From: an uncultured Spirochaetales bacterium
GTDB lineage: Bacteria; Spirochaetota; Spirochaetia; Sphaerochaetales; Sphaerochaetaceae
Reading direction: 5' to 3'
Length of the DNA: 47,300 bases
Assembly (NCBI GenBank): GCA_944392695.1
Contig: CALXXN010000015.1
Span: 1-47,300, forward strand
Made by a program: the position numbers and the translations under genes. Of this stretch, positions 5,029 to 43,716 are shown piece after piece. Under the pieces are notes generated by a model that was not told the origin of the DNA, did not search any database, and saw only the letters and a list, made by a program, of their open reading frames with translations. Numbering within the stretch: the stretch's first letter is position 1; each line of letters starts with the position of its first letter.

Positions 5029-5305
5029 TTGATGATTATGGAGAAAGAAAATATTGTGCCTGCAACCAGACCACAGGCTTGTCATCATCATTCATCCTGT
5101 ACAATGGCCTGTCAAAGGGCTGGGGGAAAAAGGGCATCAAGACAAGACCTTCAGGCTGGCAAATGGCCCGAAGGTGTACTTTGCATTTGGAGGCCCTCCA
5201 GCTGTTCATATGAAACTACTTGAATTTGTGGCAGCGGACCTCTTGATATTGAACACAATAGGCTGCACTCTTGGAATAAGTGTATTCTGAAAAAAGAGGG
5301 AGTTG
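5029..5305. other. Intergenic region ahead of the defence operon
   Basis: No convincing gene was found. Two short overlapping frames here lack family features and good ribosome sites. The last 60 bases should hold the promoter of the defence operon; several TTGA-like hexamers occur, but no clear pair of promoter boxes. The ribosome site AGAGGGAG lies at 5296-5302. Confidence 0.4.
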
Positions 5306-6769
5306 ATGACAACAGAACGACTCATTCCGTGTGCAAAGCATCTTGTTGAGTCAACAAGATCCGTAGGCTACTCATTTGAGTCGGCCATCGCAGACATAAT
5401 TGACAACAGCATCTCAAAAGACGCATCCACGATAAACATTCTTTTTGATTCCAATACTCCACAGTATGTTGCGATTGTTGATGATGGCACAGGAATGAAT
5501 GCGGATGAACTGAAACAGGCAATGCGTTATGGCAGCAGGAGCTCTGAAGAAGAGAGGTCTGAAGACGATCTGGGGCGTTTTGGCCTTGGCCTGAAAATGG
5601 CCTCCCTCTCCCAATGCAGGAAGCTCACACTAATCTCAAAATGTCACAACGAAATCAATGGTGCTTGCTGGAATCTTGGCCGTGTTTATAATGACGACGA
5701 CTGGACAATTGAACTCTACTCGCAAGAGGATCTGAAAGACAACAAATTCATTTCAGAACTTGACACTTCTGATTCTGGGACAATTGTAATTTGGGAAGAT
5801 TTTGATCGTCTTGAATGCGAAACAGATGATATTCAGAGAGTTTTCGATGAGAAAATAGGTTCCGCCAGAAATCACATAAGCCTGGTGTTTCACAGATTTC
5901 TGGACCCGCACGGTGACGCTAGACGAATCCGTATTATCATGAACGGAAATCCTGTTGAGGCCATTGATCCGTATCTGCTCTCCAACTCTGCAACCCAGCG
6001 TCTGGAAGAAGAGAAAATAAAGATTGGTGGTGAATACATCCTGGTAAAGCCTTTCATTCTCCCATACGCAAGCAAGCTTTCAAAAAAGGAACAGAAAATG
6101 TTCTCAGATTTCAATGACATCCGACATAATCAGGGTTTCTACATATATAGAAACAAACGTCTGATTGTATGGGGAACCTGGATGCGCCTGATAAAAGCCA
6201 GCGAACTGCACAAACTGGCCAGAGTACGGGTGGATATTCCCAACTCAATGGACTCAATGTGGAATATCGATATCAAGAAATCCACTGCTGCTCTACCTGA
6301 TGCAATAAAGACAAAACTGAAAGACATTGTATTGCGTGCTGTCGGTACAAGTGAACGAGTCTTCAAATATCGTGGAAGAAAGATAAAAGACAATTTGTTT
6401 CATGTTTGGGAGACTGTCGAGGGTCGAGACAAGGTTTTTCGCTACTCCATCAACAGAGAACTACCTTTGTACAAAGCACTGGTGGAAGACCTTGATGATG
6501 AAAACCAGAGGCGGCTTGAAGCTCTTCTTTCCATGGTTGAAGACACATTCCCGTATGGAGATGTCTACATCCGTCAGGCTAAAGAAGAAACAATCGGAAG
6601 AGAGACAGATCAAGATGTTCTTTTTAAAAACGGGCTGGACTATGTCGATGCCCTAATATCTCTCGGAACGAACACCACGGTAGCCTTGAACTGTCTGGAG
6701 AGGCTTGACTACCTGAATGGACACAAAGACGTGATTGCAAGAATAAGAGAGGAGTATGGCCATGAATGA
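5306..6769 (+). CDS. GHKL (MORC/MutL-like) ATPase of a Z1-type restriction system
   Basis: A 487-residue ATPase starting at ATG 5306; a TTG at 5303 is also in frame but sits too close to the AGAGGG site. The GHKL ATP-binding motifs are intact: N-box AIADIIDNSIS with D33-N34, G1 DDGTGM at about D59, and G2 GRFGLGLKMAS near residue 90. A transducer-like region follows. In known systems such ATPases clamp on DNA and act with the Z1 helicase, nuclease and AIPR protein encoded next. Its last 8 bases overlap the Z1 start, so this is a tight operon. Base composition is clearly AT-richer than the flanking sugar and redox genes, which suggests horizontal acquisition. Confidence 0.88.
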   Translation: MTTERLIPCAKHLVESTRSVGYSFESAIADIIDNSISKDASTINILFDSNTPQYVAIVDDGTGMNADELKQAMRYGSRSSEEERSEDDLGRFGLGLKMASLSQCRKLTLISKCHNEINGACWNLGRVYNDDDWTIELYSQEDLKDNKFISELDTSDSGTIVIWEDFDRLECETDDIQRVFDEKIGSARNHISLVFHRFLDPHGDARRIRIIMNGNPVEAIDPYLLSNSATQRLEEEKIKIGGEYILVKPFILPYASKLSKKEQKMFSDFNDIRHNQGFYIYRNKRLIVWGTWMRLIKASELHKLARVRVDIPNSMDSMWNIDIKKSTAALPDAIKTKLKDIVLRAVGTSERVFKYRGRKIKDNLFHVWETVEGRDKVFRYSINRELPLYKALVEDLDDENQRRLEALLSMVEDTFPYGDVYIRQAKEETIGRETDQDVLFKNGLDYVDALISLGTNTTVALNCLERLDYLNGHKDVIARIREEYGHE

Positions 6770-9578
6770 TGTTCAGAATAAGATCTTTACGCAGGTAATA
6801 GGCGTTTATCGTGATAATGGTGGACTGCCACTGAATGAGCAGCAAATTGAAACGTATGTAGACTTTTTCTCACGAATGCCTGGTTTGAACTATAACCTGA
6901 CGGAAGAAGAAAGAGCTGATCTGATAAAAGACATCAAACACAACATTGAAGTCAATGTTGATAAGAGGCCACGGGCTTGCCTTGTCGAAAAGAACCACAA
7001 GCCATGGTATCTCAACGCAAAGGCCCAAAATGAACAGAACACCTACTGGAAGAGATACAGGGATTATCTGTTCTTCCAGAAACATTACAGTCAGCCTGTA
7101 GTGGACTCAATCGATTCTTCAACTGACGATATTATGGACTTGCTCGGCAACCCCGCTTTATCAAAAGGTATTGGGTTCATGCGCAGAGGGTTGGTCCTGG
7201 GTGACGTCCAGTCTGGAAAAACTGGAACTTACATTGCACTGATAAACAAAGCAGCAGATGCTGGATATAAAGTCATCATTTTGTTGACTGGTGTCATTGA
7301 AAAACTCAGGCAACAGACTCAGGGTCGTATTGACGAAGGGTTCATAGGCAGTGACAGCGCCGCAATGGTAAAAAACATGCAGGCTTCTGAGCCGATCGGC
7401 GTCGGCAAGTTCATAACCAATGATCTGGCTCCTACTACCTGTCTTACATCTACAGAAGAAGATTTCAATTCAAGACTGGCAAACAATGTGGTCAGTAATC
7501 TCCAGGCGATCAATGGTCCGATGATCCTTGTCGTCAAGAAAAACAAGAGTGTTCTTACAAAGCTTCATCAATGGTTTACAAAAAGAAACAATGTTGTCGC
7601 TGGAGGAAAAATAGATTTTCCTCTGCTGCTGATAGATGACGAGGCTGATAATGCATCTATCAACACAAACAAGGATGACACAAACCCGACAATAATCAAC
7701 AAGTGCATCAGGGATTTGCTGAGTCTTTTCACCAAGTCAAATTACGTCGGATTCACTGCGACTCCATATGCGAATATATTCATCAAACCTGATACGGATG
7801 ATGAAATGCTCAATGCAGACTTGTTCCCACAGGACTTCATCTATGTATTGAAGAAGCCTTCCAACTATATCGGCCCAGAAGAGATCTTTGACGAACAGGG
7901 CAGATGCTCATTCATGATTAAGACAATTGACGATAAGCAAGAGAATGAATTCCTGCCTGAAAAGCATAAGAATGGTGCAACGGTCGGGCCACTCCCAGAA
8001 CCTTTGAAAGAAGCAATCTGCTCATTCTTCATTGCCAATGCAATCCTGGATTTGAGACACAGGGAAAAGACTCATAGATCCATGTTGATAAACATCAGCC
8101 GTTTTATAAACGTCCAGAACAACATCCAGGAGGCTGTGGAGAGTTTTGTAAAGACATATCAGCGGTCCATCGAGAACTACAGTCTGTCAAAGAACCCTTT
8201 GAGTAATAGTGAGCTGTCCTACATCAAGCAGGTTTTTGACAAACACTTTGATCCAAACAAGAATGCCAATGCCGGAGAAGAGAAAACTTTCAGCTGGGAT
8301 GAAATTGTCCGCTCCCTGTATCGTGCAACAACTCCGATTGTTGTAAGGGCAGTGAACAAGGATAATGCTCAGAAGAATCTCAGCTATTCAGATTATGAGG
8401 AAAACGGTCTCCGTGTAATTGCAGTTGGTGGTTTCAGCCTTTCCCGAGGACTCACTCTTGAGGGTTTGTGTGTCAGCTACTATTACAGAAACTCAAAAAT
8501 GTATGACACACTTATGCAGATGGGAAGGTGGTTTGGATATCGGGACCATTATGCTGATGTCTGCCAGATATGGATGAATAACACTTCTCGTGACTGGTAC
8601 AGAGAAATAACTCTTGCCACGCGGGAGTTGAAAGACGATTTGGAGAGAATGAGCAACCAGGGAAAAACGCCAAAAGAATTTGGACTCTGGGTAAGATCAG
8701 ACAGCACAGCTCTGTATGTCACTGCGAAAAACAAGATGAGAAACGCAGAGAGGGTGTCCAGAAAGATAACATTCTCTGGTAAGATCATTGAGACTCCATA
8801 TCTGAGGAAAAGTGAAGCCTTCAACGACAGGATCCGAGAGAGAACAGAGGCTTTCATCAATGACATTCTTGACTGGAATGGTGGATTCTCTTCAACTGAA
8901 GGTCTTCACAAACCTTCCACCCCTTTGATAAAGAGTGTTCCTTCGGAAAAGATTACTTCCTATCTGGCTGACATCAAACTTTCTGGTGATCAGACTGTTA
9001 TTGATAAAGATCTGATTACCAATTACATCAGCTCTTCCGAAGCTCTTAGGAACTGGGATGTCGCAATAGCAACAGGTGAAGGCAAAGAAGTCTGGGACTT
9101 CAAAGGTCGGAAGATTCCTAATGTCAAGAGAAGTTTTCGCATTTCTGATTATTCATATGTAATATCGGGAAAGAACAGCAGGGTAGGTGATACAGAAATG
9201 TATGGCCTTGGTCTTACAAAAGCCGAGTACGATAGAATTGAGTCAGATGTTAAAGCAAAACAGGACAAGAACCTGTCTCAGGCAGATCTGTTTGCTCCAG
9301 GCATCAAGCGCAACCCTTTGCTTGTCATTTATCCTGTTGAACTGATAGTCGGAGAAAAGGCCAAGAAAGAGGAACCTGATAAAGTTCCTGCCCTTGAAAA
9401 AGTTGTTGAAGTTGCCGGTACAAAACCTTACGTTGCAATTGGAATGGGCTTCCCTTGTGCTGTCGGAGAGATACCAATCGAATATATCTACACGATGAAT
9501 TCAACAAAACGAAAAGAGCTGATTGAGGCAGATGAAGATTTCTCGACAGACGACAATGAGGAGGAAGTAGATGAGTAA
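6762..9578 (+). CDS. Z1 domain superfamily II helicase/ATPase
   Basis: A 938-residue motor protein. Motifs seen: Walker A GDVQSGKT at residues 147-154, Walker B DDEAD near 293, a motif III-like FTATPYAN, and motif VI QMGRWFGYR near 586. These define the Z1 domain family. It is expected to translocate on or remodel DNA during restriction together with the GHKL ATPase and the PD-(D/E)XK protein. The chosen ATG at 6762 has GAGAGGAG seven bases upstream; an in-frame ATG at 6756 lies almost on the site. The C-terminal tail is very acidic (ends DEDFSTDDNEEEVDE). It overlaps the following gene by 8 bases. Confidence 0.9.
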   Translation: MNDVQNKIFTQVIGVYRDNGGLPLNEQQIETYVDFFSRMPGLNYNLTEEERADLIKDIKHNIEVNVDKRPRACLVEKNHKPWYLNAKAQNEQNTYWKRYRDYLFFQKHYSQPVVDSIDSSTDDIMDLLGNPALSKGIGFMRRGLVLGDVQSGKTGTYIALINKAADAGYKVIILLTGVIEKLRQQTQGRIDEGFIGSDSAAMVKNMQASEPIGVGKFITNDLAPTTCLTSTEEDFNSRLANNVVSNLQAINGPMILVVKKNKSVLTKLHQWFTKRNNVVAGGKIDFPLLLIDDEADNASINTNKDDTNPTIINKCIRDLLSLFTKSNYVGFTATPYANIFIKPDTDDEMLNADLFPQDFIYVLKKPSNYIGPEEIFDEQGRCSFMIKTIDDKQENEFLPEKHKNGATVGPLPEPLKEAICSFFIANAILDLRHREKTHRSMLINISRFINVQNNIQEAVESFVKTYQRSIENYSLSKNPLSNSELSYIKQVFDKHFDPNKNANAGEEKTFSWDEIVRSLYRATTPIVVRAVNKDNAQKNLSYSDYEENGLRVIAVGGFSLSRGLTLEGLCVSYYYRNSKMYDTLMQMGRWFGYRDHYADVCQIWMNNTSRDWYREITLATRELKDDLERMSNQGKTPKEFGLWVRSDSTALYVTAKNKMRNAERVSRKITFSGKIIETPYLRKSEAFNDRIRERTEAFINDILDWNGGFSSTEGLHKPSTPLIKSVPSEKITSYLADIKLSGDQTVIDKDLITNYISSSEALRNWDVAIATGEGKEVWDFKGRKIPNVKRSFRISDYSYVISGKNSRVGDTEMYGLGLTKAEYDRIESDVKAKQDKNLSQADLFAPGIKRNPLLVIYPVELIVGEKAKKEEPDKVPALEKVVEVAGTKPYVAIGMGFPCAVGEIPIEYIYTMNSTKRKELIEADEDFSTDDNEEEVDE

Positions 9579-10503
9579 TTCTGTCCATCTTGTTTTCAAC
9601 CGCTATAAACTGGTGGAATCCGGTCCTCTATATGAAATCTTCCTTGGTAAAAATGAAAAGAACCAGGATTCGCTCCTTTTCCGTGTCAATTCTTCGTTTC
9701 CTGAGGATCTGTTTGCAGAATTGACAAATACTACAACAATGGCTGTGGATCTGATACAGATGGAAAACAACCAAACTATCCTCTGCTTTGACCTTCTTGA
9801 TACAGACTACCAGACTCTTTTCTTCAGTTTTGCGGACAACATGATTTCCTTTGTCAGCAGCCAATCGAATGAGGACAGTCCATTTGAGGCCATCGTTCTC
9901 CGTTACAGCCAATGGCAGAGGCTGCTGAAAACAAATAGGACAGGGCTGTTGTCTGTTGAAACAATCCGGGGAATGATTGGAGAACTGCTTTTCCTGAGAG
10001 ACTTCCTGATACCGGAGTTTGGTGCAAAAACTGCTCTCGGTTACTGGAAAGGGCCAATTGGGGCAGACCAAGACTTCAGGACGGAAAAGAAATGGTATGA
10101 GATCAAGACGATCACCAGTGGAAGCGATACAGTTCTTATCTCCTCAATTGAGCAACTGGATTCTGAGCAGTTTGGACCTGGAGAGATTGTCATCTTTGCT
10201 CTGGATGCAACGGTTCCAGCAGATCCTGAGAAGATAACAGTCAAGAGCCTTGTTGATGAAATCAAAGTACAGCTAAGCAGACAGGAATCCTATACGTTTG
10301 ACAATTTTCTATTTTCCAATCTTGGGTATTATGACAAGCCTGAATATGAGACTGGAAACTATGTTGTAAGGCTTTCCTCGACACAGCGATATGCAATTGA
10401 CGCTATATCTCCAGTGATGAGGAGAAGCTCTGTTCCAAGTGCTGTTGTTTTCCTAAAATACAATCTTAGTCTGGCTGGGCTGGATGCCTGCAGGATAGAT
10501 TAA
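9571..10503 (+). CDS. PD-(D/E)XK family nuclease, DUF4420 type
   Basis: A 310-residue protein with a readable nuclease core: D168 in ADQDF, followed by E177-x-K179 in WYEIKT, which fits the PD-(D/E)XK metal-binding site. The N-terminal 150 residues are mixed strand and helix without a known motif. In relatives this is the cutting subunit of the Z1 restriction-like system. The ATG overlaps the Z1 stop and has GGAGG six bases upstream. It is followed at 17 bases by the AIPR gene with its own ribosome site. Confidence 0.85.
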   Translation: MSNSVHLVFNRYKLVESGPLYEIFLGKNEKNQDSLLFRVNSSFPEDLFAELTNTTTMAVDLIQMENNQTILCFDLLDTDYQTLFFSFADNMISFVSSQSNEDSPFEAIVLRYSQWQRLLKTNRTGLLSVETIRGMIGELLFLRDFLIPEFGAKTALGYWKGPIGADQDFRTEKKWYEIKTITSGSDTVLISSIEQLDSEQFGPGEIVIFALDATVPADPEKITVKSLVDEIKVQLSRQESYTFDNFLFSNLGYYDKPEYETGNYVVRLSSTQRYAIDAISPVMRRSSVPSAVVFLKYNLSLAGLDACRID

Positions 10504-10520
10504 GCAAAAGGTGGGGAAAT

Positions 10521-12602
10521 ATGGAGACAGTTACAGAATACCTGGACAATCTGAGGCAGCTTATCGCAATAGATTCTGTTCAGAATGGAATTTCAGAAAG
10601 AGAGGCCTTTATCAATTATGTCTCTGACCGTCTGCTGAATGCAGGTGAAATACAGGATGACATCAATTATCTCCATTTTGAGGGAGAAGGAAAAAACAGA
10701 AGGAACATCCAGCTTGACGGGTATTGTACAGATACTCTTTCCTCATCAATCGTTTTATTCATTGCAGACTATTCTGGTGACACTACTCCCATTACGACGT
10801 CTGACATCATGCGTTTCTACAAACGGGTAGAAGGATATCTTGAGAATGTTGATTACATATTGGACGCGGGAGAAGAAAGTTCTGGTGGTTATCAGTTGGC
10901 ATCCTCAATAAAGAATGAATATTCAGAGTTTTCCAAGTATCGGATTTACCTTATTACTGACCGGCCTCTGGCACTGTCAGTAGACTCAATATCAGAAAGC
11001 AGAATAGGTTCTCGAATTGTTGAGCATTTCATCTGGGATATCAACAGACTGTATCAGGTCGACAATTCAGAGAATGGAAGAGAGCCAATTACAATAGACC
11101 TGACAAGGTTTACACCTGACAGAAAAGGTCTCCCATGCATTCTGGCAAACAAAACCCAGGATTACACTGCTTATCTGTGTACCATTCCTGGAAGAACTCT
11201 TGCTGACCTGTACAACAAGTACACAGGCCGACTTTTGGAAGGAAATGTCAGATCCTTTCTTCAGCTGCGAGGAAAAGTGAACAGTGGGATAAGGCGAACC
11301 ATCCTTACTGAACCGGAAAACTTCTTCACTTACAACAATGGAATTTCTGGAACTGCTGCAAAAGTCGAGACAACCACCGATAATGGCATCGGCTATATAA
11401 CCAGCATTACTGATTTTCAGATCGTAAATGGTGGCCAGACAACAGCATCACTGGCTGCTTGTCTGTTGAACGACAAAAAAGAAGATTCAGAAAACAAAAT
11501 AAACGAAATTGTTGTGCAGATGAAGCTTTCTGTTGTTCAAGATCTTGAGAAAGCACAGGAACTGATTCCGAATATTTCCAAATATACCAACTCACAGAAC
11601 GCTGTCAAAGATACTGATATGTGGTCCAACCATCCGCTACACATGCGTCTTGAGAAAATATCAAGATCCATTGCAGCACCTGCGGTTGCTGGAAAGGCAA
11701 ACAGTACATTCTGGTATTACGAGAGAGCACGTGGACAGTATGCTCAGGAGACATACAAACTCGGCAAGCGGGATCGGGACAGATTCCTGGCTTCACATCC
11801 GAAAGACCAGCTTATTACAAAAACTCAGTTCGGCATAATCGTGAATATCATGAATATGCATCCAGAATATGCAAGCCTTGGTGGAGAAAAGTCCTTCAAG
11901 AAATTCATGGATTTTGGACTCAAGAAATGGGAAACAGCTGACTCTTTCTTCAATGAAGAGTTTTTCCGCAATGTTGTCGCAATCCAGTTGATGTATAAAG
12001 CAGCATACAGATACGCAGCAGGAAAGAAATATGACTATAAAGCCAATGTAGTCGAATATGCTGTTTCACGCCTGCTGTTTGAAATTGCATCAAACCCGAA
12101 CCTTGCTGGATATACAATTGATTTGGGAATGATATGGAAGAATCAGGCGGTATCCCCGGCTTTGGGTAATCAGCTTACTATCCTTGTTGATGCTGCATAT
12201 GAACATTTGAATGACCCGAGCAGGCCAGTTGTCAACGTAACAGAATGGGCAAAGAGGGAGAAATGCTGGGAATTGTTCAAGACAGCCTCTATTGAGATTT
12301 CCAAGGATTTCCTTGCTGAACTTGATACTGTCGCAAATGCAAAAACAGCCCAGGCTGATGCAAGAAAAGAACTCAAGAATGCCCAGAAAGACAATGCAAT
12401 GATTGAAGTCTGCAATTATGGCGTGAAAGGATTCAGAAAGCTTCTGGAATGGAACAAGAGTGCAAATGTTCTCTCTCCAGAAGAGAACAGATTTATACAG
12501 GCCGCACTTCTGATGGAAAGAGGCAAGTTCCCTTCTGACAAACAGTGTGTCAGGATTCTTGAAGTACTTGAACGAGCCCGGTCCAAAGGTTATTTGGGTT
12601 AG
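10521..12602 (+). CDS. AIPR family protein (abortive infection / phage resistance)
   Basis: A 693-residue protein with the AIPR signature: FFTYNNGISG near residue 272, then DFQIVNGGQTTASLAA near 303, followed by a helical C-terminal half. The family was named for plasmid-borne abortive-infection proteins; its biochemical activity is poorly known. It is the last gene of the defence operon and runs into the convergently transcribed methyltransferase with only 6 bases between stops. AGGTGGGG precedes the ATG. A charged coiled-coil-like stretch lies near residues 595-625. Confidence 0.87.
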   Translation: METVTEYLDNLRQLIAIDSVQNGISEREAFINYVSDRLLNAGEIQDDINYLHFEGEGKNRRNIQLDGYCTDTLSSSIVLFIADYSGDTTPITTSDIMRFYKRVEGYLENVDYILDAGEESSGGYQLASSIKNEYSEFSKYRIYLITDRPLALSVDSISESRIGSRIVEHFIWDINRLYQVDNSENGREPITIDLTRFTPDRKGLPCILANKTQDYTAYLCTIPGRTLADLYNKYTGRLLEGNVRSFLQLRGKVNSGIRRTILTEPENFFTYNNGISGTAAKVETTTDNGIGYITSITDFQIVNGGQTTASLAACLLNDKKEDSENKINEIVVQMKLSVVQDLEKAQELIPNISKYTNSQNAVKDTDMWSNHPLHMRLEKISRSIAAPAVAGKANSTFWYYERARGQYAQETYKLGKRDRDRFLASHPKDQLITKTQFGIIVNIMNMHPEYASLGGEKSFKKFMDFGLKKWETADSFFNEEFFRNVVAIQLMYKAAYRYAAGKKYDYKANVVEYAVSRLLFEIASNPNLAGYTIDLGMIWKNQAVSPALGNQLTILVDAAYEHLNDPSRPVVNVTEWAKREKCWELFKTASIEISKDFLAELDTVANAKTAQADARKELKNAQKDNAMIEVCNYGVKGFRKLLEWNKSANVLSPEENRFIQAALLMERGKFPSDKQCVRILEVLERARSKGYLG

Positions 12603-12608
12603 GCGCTT

Positions 12609-13874
12609 TCAGGCTTCATCAAACAGCGGTTTCATTGCTTCTGCCACTTTTTCTGCCAGAACAACGGGGACTGCATTTCCTATCTGTTTGAATGCAAAAG
12701 TGCGAGAAGGTCTTCCTGTGATCGACTCAAAGAAATAATCATCGGGGAATGTCTGCAATCTTGCAGCCTCCCTTGGTGTCAGTGAACGGTTCTGGTTCTT
12801 GTCCGGGTGGATATAATAGTGTCCGTCTTTTGAAATATGTGCTACCACAGTCTGAGAGTAGGGCATGTCTCCAGCAACAACCTTGAATCTGTCAGTAAAT
12901 GCTGTAGAGTTCTTGTGTGTCCTCAATTCCTCTGGAACTGCTTGGTAGTTCAATCTTTTGTGATTGTCATTCCAGCTTTCAACTGCCAGTTTATATATTT
13001 CCAGATCCCTGCTGTTATTTGGCCGTGAGCAATGGAAGGTGATTGGGAATTCTTCTGAATGTATTTTGGATTCGATCAGGTACCTGCTTGGCTGACATCT
13101 TTCCTTGACACCATAATATGTGCCTTCTCCTGAATGGATTGATGGCAAATCTCTCAAGACGTCATCAACAGTATATTTGTTCTCACTGATCTCAATCTCG
13201 GGATAGAAGTCTGTTTTGTTGCCTCTCTTTCCTATGATAATGACTCTCTTTCTCTTCTGGAGTACTCCATACTGACTTGAATCAAGTACTCTAAGCTCTG
13301 TTTCATAGCCTTTTTGTTTGAACAGCGCTCTCATTTTCGACAAATGAAGTTCTCCATCTTCATCTTTTGCGGAAAGAAGACCAATAACATTTTCAAAAAC
13401 AAAGTATTTGGGTTTAAATCTTTCAAGGAACTCTGCATACAGTATATACAAATAGTTTCTCTTGTCCCCTACCATCCTGTTCGGATCACGGCTACGACCA
13501 GCTAGGGAGTAAGCCTGACACGGTGGTCCTCCGATAATCAGATCCACATTCTTGCCAGAAGCGTCAATCTGTTTGAATATTCTGGGAAGTGATGAGCCCG
13601 ATATTTCCTCTTGGATGACAGAATCAATTACTTCTTTTGGAACGGAAGAATAAAGCTCATCTCTTGAGATTTCTCCCATCAGATATTTTTTATAGATGTC
13701 TGACTTGCCATTTTGCATTAAGTAATGATATGCAGCCCTTGTCCGTAACGTATTGCAAGCTGCTGCATCCATCTCAATATGACATATTGGGGAATATCCC
13801 GCGCGCACAAAACCTTCGGATAGTCCACCCGCTCCCGCAAAGATATCCAGAAAGTTTATCACAGTGGTCACCAC
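12609..13874 (-). CDS. DNA (cytosine-5) methyltransferase
   Basis: A 421-residue m5C methylase with the family motifs in order: I FAGAGGLSEGF, IV GGPPCQAYS with catalytic C119, VI FENVIGL, VIII QKRKRVIIIG, IX-like SLTPREAARLQTFPDDYF, and X IGNAVP. The region between VIII and IX (about residues 230-350) should hold the target-recognition domain. It is expected to mark host DNA so that the four-gene operon it faces attacks only unmodified DNA. The start is uncertain: GTG at 13874, 13871 and 13862 are all in frame, with GGAGG at 13880-13876 favouring 13871. The IS end lies 96 bases upstream, so its native promoter may have been replaced. Confidence 0.93.
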   Translation of the reverse strand: MVTTVINFLDIFAGAGGLSEGFVRAGYSPICHIEMDAAACNTLRTRAAYHYLMQNGKSDIYKKYLMGEISRDELYSSVPKEVIDSVIQEEISGSSLPRIFKQIDASGKNVDLIIGGPPCQAYSLAGRSRDPNRMVGDKRNYLYILYAEFLERFKPKYFVFENVIGLLSAKDEDGELHLSKMRALFKQKGYETELRVLDSSQYGVLQKRKRVIIIGKRGNKTDFYPEIEISENKYTVDDVLRDLPSIHSGEGTYYGVKERCQPSRYLIESKIHSEEFPITFHCSRPNNSRDLEIYKLAVESWNDNHKRLNYQAVPEELRTHKNSTAFTDRFKVVAGDMPYSQTVVAHISKDGHYYIHPDKNQNRSLTPREAARLQTFPDDYFFESITGRPSRTFAFKQIGNAVPVVLAEKVAEAMKPLFDEA

Positions 13875-14239: not shown

Positions 14240-16033
14240 TCAGATCACCTCATCTTCCTCACTGTAGAAGTCCTCGTTGTCAGACACTGGAGACTCGTCC
14301 GAAATCTGAACAATGCGCTCCATCTCATGGGCAAGAATATTGAGCTTGGTCATGACCATCTTTTCATCCATACCTATCATCTTGAACAGCTCTTTCTGTC
14401 TTGCAGAAATCGAGCATTCAAGAGTCCACTTGCCACTGGATGTCCTTAATAAGACTATCTTGTCGAGTTCTCTTATGAGCGCTGGAACAGAGAAGCAACT
14501 CTTCCTTCGCACTGCAGGATCCGCTTCAACAAAGTCTCTGATCAGCTTTGCAATACGACAACGGATGATCAGTGCGATGAAGGAAATGAAGGTTCTGCCT
14601 CTCAGACCTTCTTCTGTATGAGAACGCATGCTGTTGTTGCCGAAGAAAGTCTTGTCCCAGCTGAAAGCCTTCTCACTCCCGTCACGGCTCTTGTAAATCT
14701 CAAGCGCCTTAAGCGCATCCATCCTGTTGCTTGAAACGATGCAGAAGTAACCACAAAGCTTGATGTACGCTTCAATATCGGCATTGCGGGGAGAATACAT
14801 TACGACATTGCCCCTGGGACCGTACTCAATATCGAAGTACTTGTACTTGCCTCCATCCTCGTTGATCTTGAACTTTGCTGACTTGGTCCTCTTCAGGTTC
14901 TCAAGCACTTTTTCGCACTTCTCAAGGTCGGTCCTGAAAGAAGCCTGCTCTGCTGCTGCCCTGGCTGGAGAGTAGAAGATGTGGAAGTATCTGTTCTTCT
15001 TGTCGTCAGCGTAAAGCTTTTGTTCAACAGTAGTTCCATACATGCTGTATCGCTTGTTCCAGCACTTTTCACTGTCTTCGAATGTGCCTCGTACACTCAT
15101 TACAAGAGAAGCTACAAGATTCTTGCATCCCTTGACCATGATGACAAAGGAATAACCCTTGTCATCCATGTCGTTGATGTTCTCTTTCGAGAAGTGACCT
15201 CTGTCAAGAATGATGCCGATGTTCCTGTAGCCCAGACCATAGAGCTTCTCGAGCATGTACTTCAGCTGGGAGATGTCGACAATAGAACCCTGGCAGACTT
15301 CATAGGCAAGGGGTTTGTTGGCATCTATGTCGTAGAGAATGGTAACGTTGAATATAGGCTGCCCGAGATCAACCTTTGCCTTGCCGAATTCAATGAGGTC
15401 AATGTCCCCGGCCTGGCATGCCTTGTTCGTAGAGTCGTAGGAAAGATGGACAATATCTTTTTTCTTCTTTGCATCCCTGTTCCACCAGTGTATGAAGCCG
15501 GACACGTCATCACGGTCGACATGCTTCAGCACTCTAGCCACTTTTGTATCGCTGTAGATGTGCATGTCAGGAGAATGGAGAGGCCGCTCCCAAGCCCATG
15601 CAGGATAGTGCTGGGCTACATTGCTTTCATCGACAACCATGTAGGAAGCCAGATCAAGCAGCAGTCCACCATCAAGGGAGCCGAAGTGCTCCTGCATCCA
15701 GCTTTTCAGTCCGTAATCTTCAAGAATCCATGATGTAAGAATAAAACTGCCACACTTGATGTAGTGGTGCCTTGATGAGTCATCGACAATGGGAACAAGC
15801 GCCTCCGCCTCATCCGGAAAGAAGACAAAATAGTTGTCATTAGGCCACATCATCGCCGGGTTGTCAGGGCAGACTTTGCCGATCATCCTTCTGTGGGTTT
15901 TGACGTACTTCTTCTCCTTGATGTAGGTTCTTCCGTATTCGTAATGGACAAAGACATCGATGCCATTCCTGGCCTTTACGAGATAGATCTTCCCTCTGAT
16001 TTCTGGTATCGGCACGGGCGTTTTTCTGAGCAA
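14240..16033 (-). CDS. DDE transposase, IS1634/IS4-like
   Basis: 597 residues. Candidate DDE residues: D in LSYDSTN, D in GIILDRGHFS, and E in the YKSRDGSEKAF segment, which resembles the Y-x2-R-x3-E-x6-K box of IS4-group transposases. The end domain (RGRTFISFIALIIRCRI) is typical of the family C-terminus. The start is a TTG at 16033 with a clean GGAGG six bases ahead; no better ATG exists. It appears intact. A copy of the inner part of the terminal repeat (16061-16073) lies just upstream of the ribosome site, where transposase could bind and repress its own gene. Confidence 0.88.
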   Translation of the reverse strand: MLRKTPVPIPEIRGKIYLVKARNGIDVFVHYEYGRTYIKEKKYVKTHRRMIGKVCPDNPAMMWPNDNYFVFFPDEAEALVPIVDDSSRHHYIKCGSFILTSWILEDYGLKSWMQEHFGSLDGGLLLDLASYMVVDESNVAQHYPAWAWERPLHSPDMHIYSDTKVARVLKHVDRDDVSGFIHWWNRDAKKKKDIVHLSYDSTNKACQAGDIDLIEFGKAKVDLGQPIFNVTILYDIDANKPLAYEVCQGSIVDISQLKYMLEKLYGLGYRNIGIILDRGHFSKENINDMDDKGYSFVIMVKGCKNLVASLVMSVRGTFEDSEKCWNKRYSMYGTTVEQKLYADDKKNRYFHIFYSPARAAAEQASFRTDLEKCEKVLENLKRTKSAKFKINEDGGKYKYFDIEYGPRGNVVMYSPRNADIEAYIKLCGYFCIVSSNRMDALKALEIYKSRDGSEKAFSWDKTFFGNNSMRSHTEEGLRGRTFISFIALIIRCRIAKLIRDFVEADPAVRRKSCFSVPALIRELDKIVLLRTSSGKWTLECSISARQKELFKMIGMDEKMVMTKLNILAHEMERIVQISDESPVSDNEDFYSEEDEVI

Positions 16034-19299: not shown

Positions 19300-21858
19300 A
19301 TGAAAGTACTCGTGATTGGAGGAGTCGCGGCAGGGACCAAGGCTGCGGCCAAGCTCAAGAGGGAGGACAGGTCGGCCGAGGTCAGGATACTGACAAAGGG
19401 TCACGACATCTCCTATGCAGGTTGCGGACTACCTTACTACATCGGTGGCATGATAAGTGACCGCAGCGGCCTGATTGTGAACACACCCGGGAAGTTCAGC
19501 GCCCTTACGGGGGTCTCTGTCCTGACCGGGGCTGAGGTGACGTCTGTAGACTTCAAGGAGAAAACCGTCACTTATGTGCATGATGGATCAGAGGACCACG
19601 AGACTTACGACAAGCTTGTCATCACGACTGGCGCCGTGCCTATTGTCCCTCCCGTCGCCGGTGTTGGACTTGATGGCGTCTTCACCCTGAGGACACCTGA
19701 TGACGCACAGGCCATACGCGCCTGGGCAGGGAAGGAAGAAGTCAGGAGGGCCATCGTCGTCGGTGCCGGCTTCATAGGGCTCGAGACGGCAGAGAACCTG
19801 AAGAAGCTTGGCCTTTCCGTCACCGTTGTGGATATGGCTTCCCAGATAATGCCCAAGGCCTTCGACTTGGAGATGGCCGACTGGGCGAGGCGCCAGCTGG
19901 AAGCTGCCTCCATCCGCGTCCTGACCTCGGCGAAGCTCGAGGCTGTGGAGGGCGATGTGGCTGTCAAGGCTGTGAAGACTGACAAGGGGACTCTTGCGGC
20001 GGAAATCGTCGTGCTCGCCCTTGGTGTCCGCCCTGCCACGGCCTTCCTTGAAGGAAGCGGGATAAATATGGAGAAAGGTGCCATCGTGGTCGATTCATCC
20101 ATGGCGACCAATATCAAGGACGTGTACGCTGCAGGGGATTGCGCCCTTGTACGTAACCGCCTGACTGGTGGGCAGCTGTACTCGGCCATGGGTTCGAGCG
20201 CCAATCTCGAGGGACGTGTCCTTGCGCGTTGCATTGCGGGCAGGGATGCCGTATACCCTGGTGCCTTGGCGACCGGTGTCGTGAAGCTCCTTGACGACCT
20301 CAACGCGGCACGTACAGGTCTTACTGAAGATGATGCCGTCAAGGCTGGATACGACGTGGTCACTGTCGTCGCCGTCGAGGACGACAAGGCCCACTACTAC
20401 GAAGGTTCCTCCGACTTCATCATGAAGCTCATCGCAGACGCGGCAAGCCACCGCATACTGGGCTTCCAAGTCATGGGCAAGGGTGCTGTCGACAAGGTGA
20501 ACGACATCGCCGTCCTTGCCGTGTCCCAGGGCATGAAGGTCGAGGACTTCGATTGCATGGACTTCTCCTACGCACCTCCATTCTCGACTGCGATCTCTCC
20601 ATTCGTGCAACTGTGCAACGTGTTGGAGAACAAGATGAATGGCGTGCTTGAGACAATCACTCCACTTGAGTACATGCAAACAAGGGCCAGGGGCTACCGT
20701 GTCATAGACGTCCTGCCTGAGAAGACCATACCTGGAGCGACCTGGGTCGACCTTGGCAAGGTTGACGGTCCTATCCCCGGTCTTGGCAAGGATGAGAAGC
20801 TGCTTCTCGTGTGCAACCGTGGCAAGAGGGGTTACTTCCTCCAGAACCGCCTGAAGGCGGCGGGCTACACGGGCACGAGGGTGCTTGAAGGCGGAATCAC
20901 GATGAATGATGTCAGGGTGGATCTTGGCTCTGTCATCCCACCCGATGAGGTGAAGAGGGTCAAGGGGCTTGGCTGTCTCCAGGACAAGAGGCAGCCTGAC
21001 CACTTCAATGTCCGAGTGATCACCCGCAACGGCAAGATCACCTCGGCAGAGCAGAAGGCGATAGCCGAGGCCGCAGAGCGCTTCGGAAGCGGCGAGGTCA
21101 CGATGACCACGCGCCTCACGCTTGAGATCCAGGGCGTGCCCTACGCCAACATCGAGCCCGTCATCGCATTTCTCAAGGAACATGGCCTGGATACGGGTGG
21201 AACGGGCAGCAAGGTGCGTCCCGTCGTCTCGTGCAAGGGCACGACCTGCCAGTACGGCCTGATCGACACCTTCGATCTTTCAGAGAAGCTGCATACGGTT
21301 TTCTACGAAGGCTGGCACAACGTGTCCTTGCCTCATAAGTTCAAGATCGCGGTCGGTGGCTGCCCGAACAACTGCGTCAAGCCCAGCCTCAATGACATTG
21401 GCATCATAGGACAGCGCCTTATACGCTTCGATGAGGAGAAGTGCCGTGGATGCAAGCTCTGCCAGGTCGAGAAGACCTGTCCGATCAAGTGCGCCCACCT
21501 GGTCGATGGCAAACTTGACGTGGAGGGGTGCAACCACTGCGGCCGTTGCCTTGACAAGTGCCCCTTCGGTGTCACGACGGGTTACACCACTGGCTACGCC
21601 ATCTACGTCGGAGGACGCTGGGGCAAGAAGATCGAGATGGGCAAGAGGCTTTCCCGTGTTCTTACAAGCGAGGAGGAGGTCATGCAGTGTGTGGAGAACG
21701 CCATCCTCCTCTTCCGCGACGAAGGAATAAGCGGGGAGCGGTTCGCTGATACCGTGAACCGGCTTGGTCTGGAGTATGTCGAATCGAAGCTTCTTGGAGG
21801 CAAGATTGACAAGGCGCGGATCCTGGAGAAGAATGTCATCGGCGGGGCGACCTGCTGA
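19300..21858 (+). CDS. Fused CoA-disulfide-reductase-like / rhodanese / sulfite-reductase / ferredoxin protein
   Basis: 852 residues from ATG 19300 with AGAGG upstream; an in-frame ATG at 19189 gives only a non-conserved extension. Order: (1) FAD and NAD(P)H domains of the CoA-disulfide/NADH oxidase type, GGVAAG at 7-12, redox C42 in YAGCGLPYY, second GAGFIG motif, FAD box YAAGDCA; (2) dimer domain to about 445; (3) rhodanese domain with C505 in LLVCNRGKRG; (4) ferredoxin-like half plus siroheme/[4Fe-4S] domain with C645-x5-C651 and C688-x3-C692; (5) two 4Fe-4S ferredoxin clusters from C715. It should pass electrons from NAD(P)H through FAD and Fe-S clusters to a siroheme, reducing sulfite, polysulfide or a related sulfur species. 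It probably works in the cytoplasm. The activity is inferred from domains. Confidence 0.88.
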   Translation: MKVLVIGGVAAGTKAAAKLKREDRSAEVRILTKGHDISYAGCGLPYYIGGMISDRSGLIVNTPGKFSALTGVSVLTGAEVTSVDFKEKTVTYVHDGSEDHETYDKLVITTGAVPIVPPVAGVGLDGVFTLRTPDDAQAIRAWAGKEEVRRAIVVGAGFIGLETAENLKKLGLSVTVVDMASQIMPKAFDLEMADWARRQLEAASIRVLTSAKLEAVEGDVAVKAVKTDKGTLAAEIVVLALGVRPATAFLEGSGINMEKGAIVVDSSMATNIKDVYAAGDCALVRNRLTGGQLYSAMGSSANLEGRVLARCIAGRDAVYPGALATGVVKLLDDLNAARTGLTEDDAVKAGYDVVTVVAVEDDKAHYYEGSSDFIMKLIADAASHRILGFQVMGKGAVDKVNDIAVLAVSQGMKVEDFDCMDFSYAPPFSTAISPFVQLCNVLENKMNGVLETITPLEYMQTRARGYRVIDVLPEKTIPGATWVDLGKVDGPIPGLGKDEKLLLVCNRGKRGYFLQNRLKAAGYTGTRVLEGGITMNDVRVDLGSVIPPDEVKRVKGLGCLQDKRQPDHFNVRVITRNGKITSAEQKAIAEAAERFGSGEVTMTTRLTLEIQGVPYANIEPVIAFLKEHGLDTGGTGSKVRPVVSCKGTTCQYGLIDTFDLSEKLHTVFYEGWHNVSLPHKFKIAVGGCPNNCVKPSLNDIGIIGQRLIRFDEEKCRGCKLCQVEKTCPIKCAHLVDGKLDVEGCNHCGRCLDKCPFGVTTGYTTGYAIYVGGRWGKKIEMGKRLSRVLTSEEEVMQCVENAILLFRDEGISGERFADTVNRLGLEYVESKLLGGKIDKARILEKNVIGGATC

Positions 21859-21942: not shown

Positions 21943-22800
21943 ATGTCTCATAGGCCCTTTCTTGTCTTCATCTGCCTGTTTGTGCTGATCTTGGCACCGC
22001 TATCGGCAATGCGTGTCGCCGCTCTCAACTCCTCACTAGCCGAGCTCTGGTGCCTGGCTGGAGGAGATGTCGCCATCACAGTGCAGGATGCCGTCGACAG
22101 GGGCATCGTGGATGAGCGTGATGTCATCCTCGTCGATACAGCCTCAGGGCGGAATATAAACACCGAGGTCCTGCTCCTGGCCCAGCCGGATCTCGTCCTC
22201 GGCAGTCCCGACACGGCAAGCCATGTACGCATCAAAAGCCTTCTCGACAGTCTTGGTATCGACATGCTCCTCATACGTCAGGACAGCTTCGATGACTTCC
22301 TGATGTCTTTCAAGGAGCTTACGGCGATGACGGGACGTGAGGACCTCTGGCAGGAGTACGGACTTGGGCAGAAGGCCAGGATAGAGACCCTTGTATCTTC
22401 GGCACAGGATATGGACAGCCATCCCCGCGTCCTCTTCGTGAGGGCGGGCAGCGCCTTCTCCTCTGTGAGGGCGAAACGGAGCGACGATCACTTCGCCGCC
22501 CTCATCATGGAGGAATTGGGAGCCGTGAACGTTGCTGACGAGATGGGCCTGCTCACAGAGAGCCTCTCGCTTGAAGCCATGCTCACTGCTGACATCGACA
22601 AGCTCGTCATCGTGGCCCAGGGGGATGAGGAGGCGGCCCAGGCCTATATGGAGAACCTGCTTGCCCAGCCCGGCTGGAGGGACCTGCCATGCGTTGCCTC
22701 TGGCGAGGTGTACTTCCTGCCAAAGGACCTTTTCCATTACAAGCCCAACGGCAGATGGGTGGAGGCCTACCGGACGATGGAGGACGTGCTCTATGGCTAA
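21943..22800 (+). CDS. Periplasmic binding protein for metal chelate (BtuF/FecB type)
   Basis: 285 residues with a Sec signal peptide ending near LSA (residue 22) and no lipobox. The TroA/BtuF-like fold is suggested by the two lobes and the RVLFVRAGSAFSSV and YFLPKDLFHYKPNGRW segments. It is the first gene of a three-gene importer (binding protein, permease, ATPase). The ATG has GAGGA six bases upstream. Substrates of the family are iron-siderophore, haem or cobalamin. The neighbouring chelatase gene favours a tetrapyrrole or metal linked to siroheme/cobalamin, but this is inference. Confidence 0.88.
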   Translation: MSHRPFLVFICLFVLILAPLSAMRVAALNSSLAELWCLAGGDVAITVQDAVDRGIVDERDVILVDTASGRNINTEVLLLAQPDLVLGSPDTASHVRIKSLLDSLGIDMLLIRQDSFDDFLMSFKELTAMTGREDLWQEYGLGQKARIETLVSSAQDMDSHPRVLFVRAGSAFSSVRAKRSDDHFAALIMEELGAVNVADEMGLLTESLSLEAMLTADIDKLVIVAQGDEEAAQAYMENLLAQPGWRDLPCVASGEVYFLPKDLFHYKPNGRWVEAYRTMEDVLYG

Positions 22801-23758
22801 GACAGGACTGGCTGTTGCTGCCCTGATCCTCATCATCATGGCATTGATATGCCTGATGGCAGGCAGTACGAGGCTCGATTTCACACGCGTCTTCACACCT
22901 GGCAGCGTCGAGTCCATCGTCTTCATGTCGGTCCGTCTGCCACGCGTCCTGGCTGCGGCCCTTGCAGGGCTTGCATTCGCGCTATCAGGCCTCTTGTTAC
23001 AGGTTGCGAGTGGCAATGACCTGGCAAGCCCGAACATCATAGGGGTGAATTCCGGATCAGGCTTCGCCGTCCTCCTTTTCCTCTGTTTCCTGCCCCAGCA
23101 CTTCCTCCTCCTGCCATTTGCGGCCTTTGCCGGGGCCATGGCCGCAGCCGTCCTCGTGTTCACAATCTCATCCCTTTCGACACGGCTCTCGTCATCGAGT
23201 TCCCTTATTCTCGCCGGTGTTGCTGTAAACGCGCTCTTCAACGCATTGATCAGCACACTCTCATCCCTGAAGCCGGAGGTCATGGGTTCCTACAGCGCCT
23301 TCTCTGTCGGTGGTTTCGCATCAATCCAGCCATCCAGCCTGGTCGCACCTGCCGTGATCATCCTCATCTCAAGTGTCCTGTGCATCGCAATCGCACCAGT
23401 GCTTGACGTGATCCGGCTGGGCGATGAAATCGCCTCCTCGCTTGGCTACAGGCCACGCAGGGTGCGCATGCTCCTCTCCATGCTTGCAAGTCTCATGGCT
23501 GGGGCTGCCGTAAGCTTCGCTGGGCTTCTTGGCTTCGTTGGACTCGTCACTCCGCATCTCGCCAACTTCCTCACAGGAGGTGGTGGACGGAGGACTGTGG
23601 TCATGTGCGCTCTCTCTGGTCCTACGCTGGTCCTCCTTTCTGACCTGCTTGCCCGCACAGTGGTCGCTCCGGGGGAGCTCCCGGCTGGTGTCTTCATGGC
23701 GGCAATCGGAGTGCCTTTCCTGGTTTATCTCCTTACAAGGAGGGCCCGCCATGCTTGA
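22793..23758 (+). CDS. FecCD-type ABC transporter permease
   Basis: 321 residues with eight to ten membrane helices and hallmark segments of the BtuC/FecCD family: RLPRVLAAALAGLAFALSG in helix 2 and GFVGLVTPHLANFLTGG near residue 245. It forms the membrane channel for the chelate captured by the upstream protein. The ATG at 22793 overlaps that gene's stop by 8 bases and has GGAGG at good spacing. Confidence 0.92.
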   Translation: MAKTGLAVAALILIIMALICLMAGSTRLDFTRVFTPGSVESIVFMSVRLPRVLAAALAGLAFALSGLLLQVASGNDLASPNIIGVNSGSGFAVLLFLCFLPQHFLLLPFAAFAGAMAAAVLVFTISSLSTRLSSSSSLILAGVAVNALFNALISTLSSLKPEVMGSYSAFSVGGFASIQPSSLVAPAVIILISSVLCIAIAPVLDVIRLGDEIASSLGYRPRRVRMLLSMLASLMAGAAVSFAGLLGFVGLVTPHLANFLTGGGGRRTVVMCALSGPTLVLLSDLLARTVVAPGELPAGVFMAAIGVPFLVYLLTRRARHA

Positions 23759-24500
23759 AGTGAGGAACCTGAGTGTCAGGGCGGGGAAGACGCTCCTCCT
23801 TGAAGATGTGAGCTTTACTTTGAACGAAGGACGTATCTGTGCGCTTCTTGGTGCGAACGGCAGCGGCAAGACAAGCCTGATCCGTGCCCTGACTTCATAC
23901 TACCCCCACTACCAGGGGTCGATAATGTTCTCTGGCCAGGAGCTCAGGAATTCGTCAAAAAGGGAGAAGGCATCCCTCCACGCCCTTCTTCCACAGGATC
24001 TTCCGCAGGTCGACATCGTCGTCTCTTCGTTGTTTGATGATGTCGAGGGTGGAACTGGTGTCTTGGATGGGCTTGGTCTTTCACGTCTGGCAGGGAGGCG
24101 GCTCATCAGCCTCTCTGGTGGTGAGAGGGAACTTGTCTTCCTTGCCCTCATGCTCTCTCGCAAGGCCTCGCTCTACTGCCTTGATGAAGCAGAGGCGAAT
24201 CTGGATCCAAGAGGACGGCGCCTCGTGGAGAGGTCCATGGAACGGCTCAAGAGGGAAGGGCACATGGTGCTCGCCTCTTTCCATGACATCCCAAGGGCGC
24301 TGAGGTTTGCAGACGACTGCCTTGTCCTGGACCATGGACGCCTTGTCTTCTCTGGAAGTGTCGGGGATTTCCGTGAAAGTGGGCTGGCCACCTCGCTCTT
24401 CGGCCTTGTCGAGAGGTGTTTCACTTCAGAGGATGGACAGCTTGTGAAGCTTCTCCTTGAAGCCTGTGATGAGGATGTCGGCAAGGGAGGGGAGGCTTGA
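23751..24500 (+). CDS. ABC transporter ATP-binding protein, metal-chelate type
   Basis: 249 residues. Motifs: Walker A LLGANGSGKTS near residue 35, signature LSGGERELV, Walker B LYCLDEAEANLDP, and switch histidine in ASFHD. It energises the FecCD-type permease. The ATG overlaps the permease stop by 8 bases with AAGGAGGG upstream. Its 3' end overlaps the convergent chelatase gene by 75 bases. The usual family phrase DEPTxxLD is DEAEANLD here, which still keeps the catalytic glutamate. Confidence 0.92.
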   Translation: MLEVRNLSVRAGKTLLLEDVSFTLNEGRICALLGANGSGKTSLIRALTSYYPHYQGSIMFSGQELRNSSKREKASLHALLPQDLPQVDIVVSSLFDDVEGGTGVLDGLGLSRLAGRRLISLSGGERELVFLALMLSRKASLYCLDEAEANLDPRGRRLVERSMERLKREGHMVLASFHDIPRALRFADDCLVLDHGRLVFSGSVGDFRESGLATSLFGLVERCFTSEDGQLVKLLLEACDEDVGKGGEA

Positions 24501-25103
24501 TACGAGACCTTCCCTGACTAGTGTGACCTCATGGCCACCATTAATCAGGAAGGGGACGATGGTCTCAGCCACCTCCTTCCTCACGTGGTGGCCTCCTGTG
24601 AGGAGGAAGGGGGTGATGCGCACATTCTCCGCCTGTATGGACAGTTCACGCCATGGCTTCTGTCCCTTGAGGGTGCAAAGCACTATGTCGTCCCTGAGGA
24701 TGGAGGAGAGCTCATCAAGTTCTGCGATGTGCCTTCCACCGCTGCCATGGGCCATGAGCACATGAACAAGACCCTCACGCTTCTCAAGGCCCTCTTCGAG
24801 GACTCTTGCCACTGTCTTGACTGAAGAGGGGTTGAGCAGGGGCTCCGCCACAGTCCTGCTGTAGGACTGGAGCCGGTACCACTCGTCGCCACGCTGTACG
24901 AGGAGTGGGAGCATGATGGAATGTGAAGTGTCCACATCGTCGATGTGGGTACGGCCCATCGCCACGCTGCAACGCCGGCTGAGCCAGAGACGGGCGCACC
25001 TGAGGCCTATCTCCTCCTCGACCCTGTCTTCGAGGGACGTGAGCTCCCTGTAAGAGGACTCGTCCATTGTCCCGAAGCTTGTAAGCAGGATTTGCGTATT
25101 CAT
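24426..25103 (-). CDS. cbiK: Sirohydrochlorin chelatase, CbiK type
   Basis: 225 residues. It has the CbiK/HemH fold marks: an N-terminal SFGTMDESS loop, first active-site histidine in LMAHGSGGRH, and second in PFLLTGGHHVRKE, matching the two metal-binding histidines of CbiK. It inserts Co2+ (or Fe2+, as some family members do) into sirohydrochlorin, giving cobalamin precursor or siroheme. ATG 25103 is chosen by alignment to family length; no clear ribosome site is seen and an ATG at 25106 is adjacent. It is convergent with the chelate importer and near the sulfite reductase fusion, which needs siroheme. Iron or cobalt cannot be decided from sequence. Confidence 0.8.
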   Translation of the reverse strand: MNTQILLTSFGTMDESSYRELTSLEDRVEEEIGLRCARLWLSRRCSVAMGRTHIDDVDTSHSIMLPLLVQRGDEWYRLQSYSRTVAEPLLNPSSVKTVARVLEEGLEKREGLVHVLMAHGSGGRHIAELDELSSILRDDIVLCTLKGQKPWRELSIQAENVRITPFLLTGGHHVRKEVAETIVPFLINGGHEVTLVREGLVSSLPSLADILITGFKEKLHKLSIL

Positions 25104-25232
25104 CATCAGACAACAATGACCCGGATCAGGGGGTAGATACAAGATGGCGTGTGGATGGCTCAACCACCTTGTTGCATATACAGGGTATTGGCCATCCTGC
25201 ATCTGGTGTTTTCATCCAGGCCTCAAGAATAT

Positions 25233-41142: not shown

Positions 41143-42234
41143 ATGAAGAAAGAAGGAGAGGTGAGGATCAGTTCAGGTTGTGCGATCTGCGGCATCTTCT
41201 GCAAAGATGGCAGACGCATCACCGGGGATGCCATAAAACGTTCGATAAGCGTGATGCACAACAGGTCCAATGGACTGGGTGGAGGTTTTGCAGCCTATGG
41301 GATCTACCCCCAGTACAAGGACTTTTTCGCCTTGCACATATTCTATGACTCGCTTTCGTCCAGGGAGGAGACGGAGCGTTTCCTCGACAGGCGCTTTGAC
41401 ATCATCAACCTTTCGAAGATCCCTATCCGACAGACCCCGCGTATTTCTGATGCGCCCCTCGTCTGGCGTTACTTCGTCACTCCATTGCCGCACATGCTGG
41501 CTGACAGCCAGCTTGATGAGGACGAGTACACCTCTCGTGCCATGATAAGGATCAACAATTCCATACAGGGTGCCTACGTCGTCTCATGCGGCAAGGACAT
41601 GGGTGTCTTCAAGGCGGTCGGCTATCCTGAGGATGTCGCTGACTTCTACCGCATCGACGAGTACGAGGGCTATTCCTGGACAGCCCACGGACGCTACCCA
41701 ACGAACACACCTGGCTGGTGGGCAGGTTCCCATCCATTCTCACTGCTTGACCTGACAGTGGTGCACAATGGTGAGATCTCCTCCTATGATGCCAACAGGA
41801 GGGCGGTGGAGATGTATGGCTACTCATGCAACCTGCTGACCGACACCGAGGTGATCACCTACATCCTCGACTACCTGACCAGGAAGCAGGGGCTTGGACT
41901 GAAGGAGTGCGCCGAGGTCATGGCCGCCCCCTTCTGGTCGACAATCGCGGCGAAGGATGAAGAGGAGAGGCGGCGCCTGTCATACCTGAGGAAGATGTTC
42001 TCTGCCTTCCTCGTCACGGGCCCGTTCTCGATCATCGTCGGTTATTCAGGAGGGATGATGGCCTTGAACGACAGGCTCAAGCTCAGGAGCCTTGTCGCTG
42101 CCCAGAAGGGCGATACGGTCTACTTCAGCTCAGAGGAGGCTGCCATAAGGGTCATCGAGCCGGCCCCGGACAGGGTCTGGAAGCCCCGTGGCGGCGAGGC
42201 TGTGATAGTTTCTCTAGAGAGGCGTGGGATATGA
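41143..42234 (+). CDS. Glutamate synthase, class II glutamine amidotransferase subunit
   Basis: 363 residues from ATG 41143 (GGTGGAG upstream). It has the class II amidotransferase layout: nucleophile candidate C16 in CAICGIF, which would need removal of a short propeptide, then HNRSNGLGGGFAAYG, TAHGRYPTNT, VHNGEISSYDANRRAVE and LLTDTEVITYILDYL. It frees ammonia from glutamine and passes it to the FMN subunit encoded next. It corresponds to the N-terminal domain of large bacterial GltB, encoded separately as in archaea. It overlaps the next gene by 4 bases (ATGA). Confidence 0.88.
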   Translation: MKKEGEVRISSGCAICGIFCKDGRRITGDAIKRSISVMHNRSNGLGGGFAAYGIYPQYKDFFALHIFYDSLSSREETERFLDRRFDIINLSKIPIRQTPRISDAPLVWRYFVTPLPHMLADSQLDEDEYTSRAMIRINNSIQGAYVVSCGKDMGVFKAVGYPEDVADFYRIDEYEGYSWTAHGRYPTNTPGWWAGSHPFSLLDLTVVHNGEISSYDANRRAVEMYGYSCNLLTDTEVITYILDYLTRKQGLGLKECAEVMAAPFWSTIAAKDEEERRRLSYLRKMFSAFLVTGPFSIIVGYSGGMMALNDRLKLRSLVAAQKGDTVYFSSEEAAIRVIEPAPDRVWKPRGGEAVIVSLERRGI

Positions 42235-43715: not shown

Positions 43716-43716
43716 T

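Follow-up and report, generated by a model that had tools for sequence, protein, structure and literature searches.

An 852-residue protein from an uncultured Spirochaetales bacterium combines known modules in a new way; the best reading of its sequence is a siroheme enzyme that would reduce sulfite, joined to a persulfide reductase. The three genes that follow it are read as an ABC importer that could deliver siroheme to a host unable to make it. We put the probability of this whole explanation, a two-part sulfur reductase combined with siroheme import, at about 0.7. The computation, which covered the window (the whole analysed stretch of 47,300 nucleotides) and genomes holding relatives of the protein, supports the domain make-up and conserved active sites of the fusion, the absence of HemC and SUMT from the host, and the mutual exclusion of importer and siroheme biosynthesis across genomes.

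Domain make-up and active sites of the fusion

The gene reads from an ATG at 19300 to a stop at 21858, and this reading frame, claimed in a preliminary description of the same DNA, is real, as its relatives share the start Met and align with it end to end; 12 full-length homologues (66-83% identity), found in genomes of the same family, begin and stop where it does. The features of the fusion are the following.

19300..21858, + strand: fusion gene, 852 aa; CoA-persulfide-reductase-type flavoprotein, rhodanese, and siroheme sulfite reductase (SiR) with inserted 2[4Fe-4S] ferredoxin
19300..20595, + strand: Pyr_redox_2 and dimerisation domains, aa 1-432; C42, catalytic, for CoA; matches 8a56
20701..20901, + strand: Rhodanese domain, aa 468-534; C505 within the loop CNRGKR
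20983..21786, + strand: SiR core, aa 562-829; R572, R605, R640, K680, K682; C645-x4-C650, C688-x3-C692
21442..21561, + strand: 2[4Fe-4S] ferredoxin insert, aa 715-754; all eight Cys invariant
21826..21855, + strand: conserved C-terminal tail, ending in GGATC; C852 invariant in 81 fusions

Pfam places Pyr_redox_2 (1-287), the dimerisation domain (333-432) and Rhodanese (468-534) in the N-terminal half, and NIR_SIR_ferr (562-627) and NIR_SIR (636-829) in the C-terminal half. The FAD reductase, rhodanese and siroheme reductase modules of the preliminary description are thereby confirmed, but the ferredoxin, counted there as a C-terminal fifth module, is an insert in the SiR domain. The redox cysteines listed there are likewise invariant (C42, C505, C645, C688, C692 and the ferredoxin set from C715), except that C651 should be C650; C731 is not conserved among relatives, and two positions had been overlooked, C559 (conserved in 79 of 81 fusions) and the C-terminal C852 (81 of 81).

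The N-terminal half matches the E. faecalis CoA-persulfide reductase (8a56) end to end (E 7e-91, aligned over residues 1-533). In that enzyme a swinging CoA arm links the catalytic C42 and C508, whose counterparts in the fusion are C42, invariant in all 77 fusions whose sequence covers the position, and C505. The FAD domain with its site, C42 and the rhodanese Cys, features of the CoA-persulfide reductase, CoADR-RHD and Npsr enzymes (8a56, 3icr, 3nta), are all present, and the fusion differs from these enzymes by bearing an additional SiR domain. A related flavoenzyme from T. maritima, resembling the NAD(P)H sulfur reductases of archaea, can use NAD(P)H to reduce polysulfide as well as thiosulfate.

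Judged by its sequence, the C-terminal half is very probably a siroheme sulfite reductase. In Fsr, sulfite is bound by R355, R423, K460 and K462, and R388 marks the assimilatory type; the corresponding R572, R640, K680 and K682, as well as R605, are invariant in 81 of 81 fusions, and so are C505, C645, C650, C688, C692 and the ferredoxin cysteines C715/718/721/727 and C744/747/750/754. Because the modules are intact, each one being complete as had been claimed, and the SiR part retains every sulfite-binding residue of Fsr, we favour the reading of a siroheme sulfite reductase joined to a persulfide reductase. The likeness to Fsr group I (PDB 7np8, 7npa) covers these Arg and Lys residues, a fused flavin-containing electron module, and the insertion of the 2[4Fe-4S] ferredoxin in the SiR domain, which is found in Dsr too. 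However, the flavoprotein of the fusion is an NAD(P)H persulfide reductase with rhodanese and not the N-terminal F420H2-oxidase domain of group I, the N-terminal ferredoxin is missing, a C-terminal Cys is conserved, and the CX5CXnCX3C motif of group I is not found. Its place is held by the cluster motif CKGTTC (C-x4-C) in 81 of 81 fusions, one residue under the canonical CX5C, and the site at the siroheme-coupled cluster could be altered by this spacing.

Dsr-like chemistry was considered and rejected, since the fusion has R605 and the CX4C cluster motif, where Thr replaces the assimilatory Arg in DsrA and DsrB has CXnCCX3C. The fusion scores far under the cut-offs of both the DsrA model (95.8 vs 392.85 bits) and the AsrC model TIGR02912 (93.5 vs 324.1 bits), and for this reason surveys using DsrAB or AsrC models alone would likely overlook this large, little-described family of sulfite reductases. 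The fusions end in GGA[TSK]C, the last residue being the invariant C852, which recalls the DsrC arm. A DsrC-like role for it is conceivable; the solo SiR of genome G386 is without this cysteine.

Spread of the fusion and of its separate halves

When the SiR module was used as query against GTDB genomes, 529 relatives were obtained, and the best 80 of them, inspected for architecture, all have the identical fusion (spirochaetes, Lachnospiraceae, Oscillospiraceae and Holdemania). The module order is therefore not unusual, and the fusion is common across gut Clostridia, Holdemania and spirochaetes. The statement of the preliminary description that no settled function is known for this order stands, as no account of a CoADR-rhodanese-SiR fusion was found in the open-licence literature. 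In a broader Clostridia sample, SiR alone (~310 aa) and CoADR-rhodanese alone both occur, so that neither half requires the other to function, and five genomes encode them as distinct genes next to each other; the fusion thus unites partners that are elsewhere encoded side by side. The clostridial solo SiR belongs to the same C-x4-C family, shares 60-68% identity with the SiR of the fusion and lies with the same importer or in a siroheme operon, differing in that it is not fused. Plasmid-borne spread of the full fusion was rejected, there being no match to it in the plasmid collection. In 21 loci, L057, L069, L080 and L115 among them, the SiR gene is preceded by a divergently oriented gene for a LysR-type regulator, which likely responds to sulfur or sulfite.

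Siroheme synthesis and the putative importer genes

HemC and SUMT are absent from the genome of the window and from the 15 genus mates tested (16 of 16), and the siroheme route is therefore missing from the host. Accordingly, self-sufficiency for the cofactor is not supported for the enzyme, which the preliminary description had called self-contained. Directly downstream of the fusion are the genes given below, left out of account in that description, which suggest import of siroheme.

21943..22800, + strand: substrate-binding protein (PBP; Peripla_BP_2) of the putative siroheme importer
22793..23758, + strand: FecCD-type permease of the putative importer; family match, conserved neighbourhood
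23751..24500, + strand: ABC ATPase of the putative importer; family match, conserved neighbourhood
24426..25106, - strand: CbiK-like protein with a chelatase fold; H120 and H174 invariant, no Glu conserved

The PBP_2, FecCD and ABC ATPase genes are grouped as in FecCD/PBP_2 importers, and no other genes near the fusion are conserved as well as these; next come the CbiK-like gene and, among Clostridia, the divergent LysR gene. The predicted structure of the PBP (pLDDT 94) resembles siderophore, heme and B12 binders alike, and such fold matches do not discriminate between these ligands. K267 is invariant, within the signature KPNxRW, and K178 and R167 are nearly invariant; such a set of residues could accommodate a ring bearing eight carboxylates. 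Because the host is without HemC and SUMT and the genes adjoin SiR, we read them as an importer that probably supplies siroheme or its immediate precursor.

Importer genes come right after the solo SiR of G386, a genome without the fusion, whereas in L151, L153 and L157-L160 the solo SiR lies within a siroheme operon with CysG-N and HemD, with HemC nearby and, in L157-L160, with HemB in the operon. In these loci and in L077 the place of the importer is taken by siroheme genes (HemD/SUMT, HemB, HemL, CysG-N). The SiR family is thus linked to siroheme either by synthesis or by import.

From the import reading we predicted that genomes without siroheme synthesis should carry the importer and genomes with synthesis should not. 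In the first sample, 50 fusion genomes in which the adjacent importer was scored against HemC or SUMT, it was found in 0 of 21 genomes with either gene vs 26 of 29 without (p=3e-11), and in 0 of 16 vs 25 of 28 when loci with less than 3 kb of downstream sequence were left out. A tree-aware test on this sample held just 3 supported independent pairs (p=0.25), and a second sample was then added, freshly drawn from Clostridia, with SiR fused and solo. HemC and SUMT calls agreed in all 57 genomes of it, and a same-strand importer occurred in 0 of 31 with HemC vs 19 of 27 without (p=2e-9); for solo SiR alone, the counts were 0 of 15 vs 15 of 17. The importer is convergent, on the opposite strand, at three further loci lacking HemC and at one with HemC (L152). 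A genome-wide search with the PBP profile located the importer elsewhere in G433, G439, G440 and G993, which lack HemC and have none beside SiR with ample flank, and in 1 (G929) of 13 genomes with HemC, none being found in the other 12.

Combining the 98 genomes with fused or solo SiR, the importer is present in 1 of 42 with HemC vs 55 of 56 without, as scored locally for most HemC-containing genomes and genome-wide for the exceptions among those lacking it. Each trait changes 17 times on the SiR tree, and all 8 independent pairs on supported branches are concordant (p=0.008). Two genomes are discordant. In L077 HemC was not found, yet the fusion lies among SUMT/HemD, HemB, HemL and a CysG-N-like gene; L152 (G929) is the sole genome seen with HemC/SUMT plus an SiR-linked importer, possibly a recent switch between siroheme synthesis and import. 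A further genome, L148 (G993), has no HemC/SUMT, three cobalamin-type methylase hits and an importer away from SiR, and the imported ring may there be fed into B12 synthesis.

Proposed mechanism, cargo of the importer and alternative readings

We infer siroheme binding, the sulfur substrates, the electron route and the transported molecule, and propose that they fit together as follows. The rhodanese C505 would accept sulfane sulfur and hand it to enzyme-bound CoA, from which NAD(P)H, FAD and C42 would then free it as sulfide. The Fsr-like, assimilatory-type SiR half could reduce sulfite to sulfide with six electrons, received via the inserted ferredoxin. Electron flow from FAD to the siroheme, as the NAD(P)H-driven enzyme of the preliminary description would require, is conjectural. 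Jointly, the two halves might turn persulfide and sulfite, the pair released when thiosulfate is cleaved, as well as free sulfite, into sulfide, although we hold this thiosulfate/persulfide coupling only tentatively. The PBP/FecCD/ATPase importer would deliver siroheme itself to a host that is unable to make it, and in the lineage of the window the CbiK-like protein could deal with a metal-free or wrongly metallated ring.

The strongest competing reading is that the importer carries metal-free sirohydrochlorin, into which the CbiK-like protein inserts iron to give siroheme; this is conceivable but rather unlikely. In its favour, at nearly every spirochaete locus that is long enough the CbiK-like gene is a neighbour of the importer, and in Holdemania and related loci it stands between the fusion and the PBP gene. 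Its product folds like the sirohydrochlorin chelatases CbiK and SirB, the first match being 2xvz (TM 0.83), followed by FetB of P. gingivalis and by SirB. The CbiK Pfam model gives it a weak pass (27.0 vs a cut-off of 26.2 bits). The metal ligands of CbiK are a His, Glu, His triad with Glu as the third ligand; the alignment of CbiK-like proteins has a pair of invariant His residues, as in the CbiK and SirB chelatases, but no conserved Glu was seen where the triad would have one. Because of this lack, despite the CbiK fold and the two His, the chelatase activity of the protein is uncertain. Moreover, in a search that covered CbiK- and CbiX-type chelatases, most of the importer genomes searched had no CbiK relative and none had CbiX. 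On this search a universal chelatase requirement was rejected, and finished siroheme is the simplest cargo.

That the importer takes heme, cobalamin or an iron siderophore, its adjacency to SiR being incidental or serving iron supply, is considerably less probable. These are the usual cargoes of the FecCD and PBP_2 families, with which the importer shares family and fold, and the PBP model matches binders of all three types; but such a cargo would not account for the near-perfect exclusion with HemC over 98 genomes and 17 switches, and the importer follows solo SiR as well. It is also missing from SUMT-containing genomes without cobalamin methylases, which probably make siroheme only, and no Rfam riboswitch of any family was found in the window and six importer loci; on these two grounds B12 import in particular was rejected. 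What sets the importer of the window apart from the known heme, siderophore and B12 importers is its genetic association with a siroheme enzyme and with lost siroheme synthesis, besides the distinct PBP signature named above.

For the enzyme itself, a NirB-like nitrite reductase driven by NAD(P)H, with electrons passing from the FAD half to the siroheme half and nitrite as the true substrate, is a similarly improbable reading. The FAD domain does score on the NirB model, and the Fsr of M. thermolithotrophicus reduces nitrite with a Km below that for sulfite; however, the score on that model (an NCBIfam equivalog) is 225.6 vs a cut-off of 578.35 bits, and neither the CoA-persulfide cysteine pair nor the rhodanese in the N-terminal half is needed for nitrite. 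Finally, that the absence of HemC reflects incomplete assemblies and the importer pattern shared ancestry is very improbable: most of the genomes are MAGs and HemC was missed in L077 beside other siroheme genes, but HemC and SUMT calls concur throughout the second sample, all 16 tested genomes of the genus lack both, the single-contig genome G386 lacks both as well, and the tree-aware test on the enlarged sample argues against shared ancestry.

Siroheme is usually viewed as made by each cell for its own use. A search of the open-licence literature for siroheme import, uptake, transport, salvage or auxotrophy returned no importer, and the importer is a candidate for a new function within a known transporter family. 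We consider it probable that the PBP/FecCD/ATPase genes encode the first described siroheme importer, and that many gut anaerobes lacking tetrapyrrole synthesis scavenge the siroheme of their neighbours for sulfite reduction. If so, a dedicated importer would make siroheme a shared gut commodity, like B12, and the reduction of sulfite and thiosulfate, with its output of hydrogen sulfide, in many gut Clostridia and spirochaetes would rely on neighbours.

Elsewhere in the window, 5303-13874 is a candidate anti-phage system, with MzaB (HATPase), MzaC (Z1 helicase-like), MzaD (DUF4420 PD-(D/E)XK) and MzaE (AIPR) consecutive on the + strand and a C5-cytosine methylase gene on the - strand after MzaE. 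A DDE transposase gene (DDE_Tnp_1; 14240-16033, - strand) adjoins this candidate defence island. A three-gene glutamate synthase, divided into a glutamine amidotransferase domain, a synthase domain with ferredoxin and a GXGXG domain, is encoded at 41146-44397.
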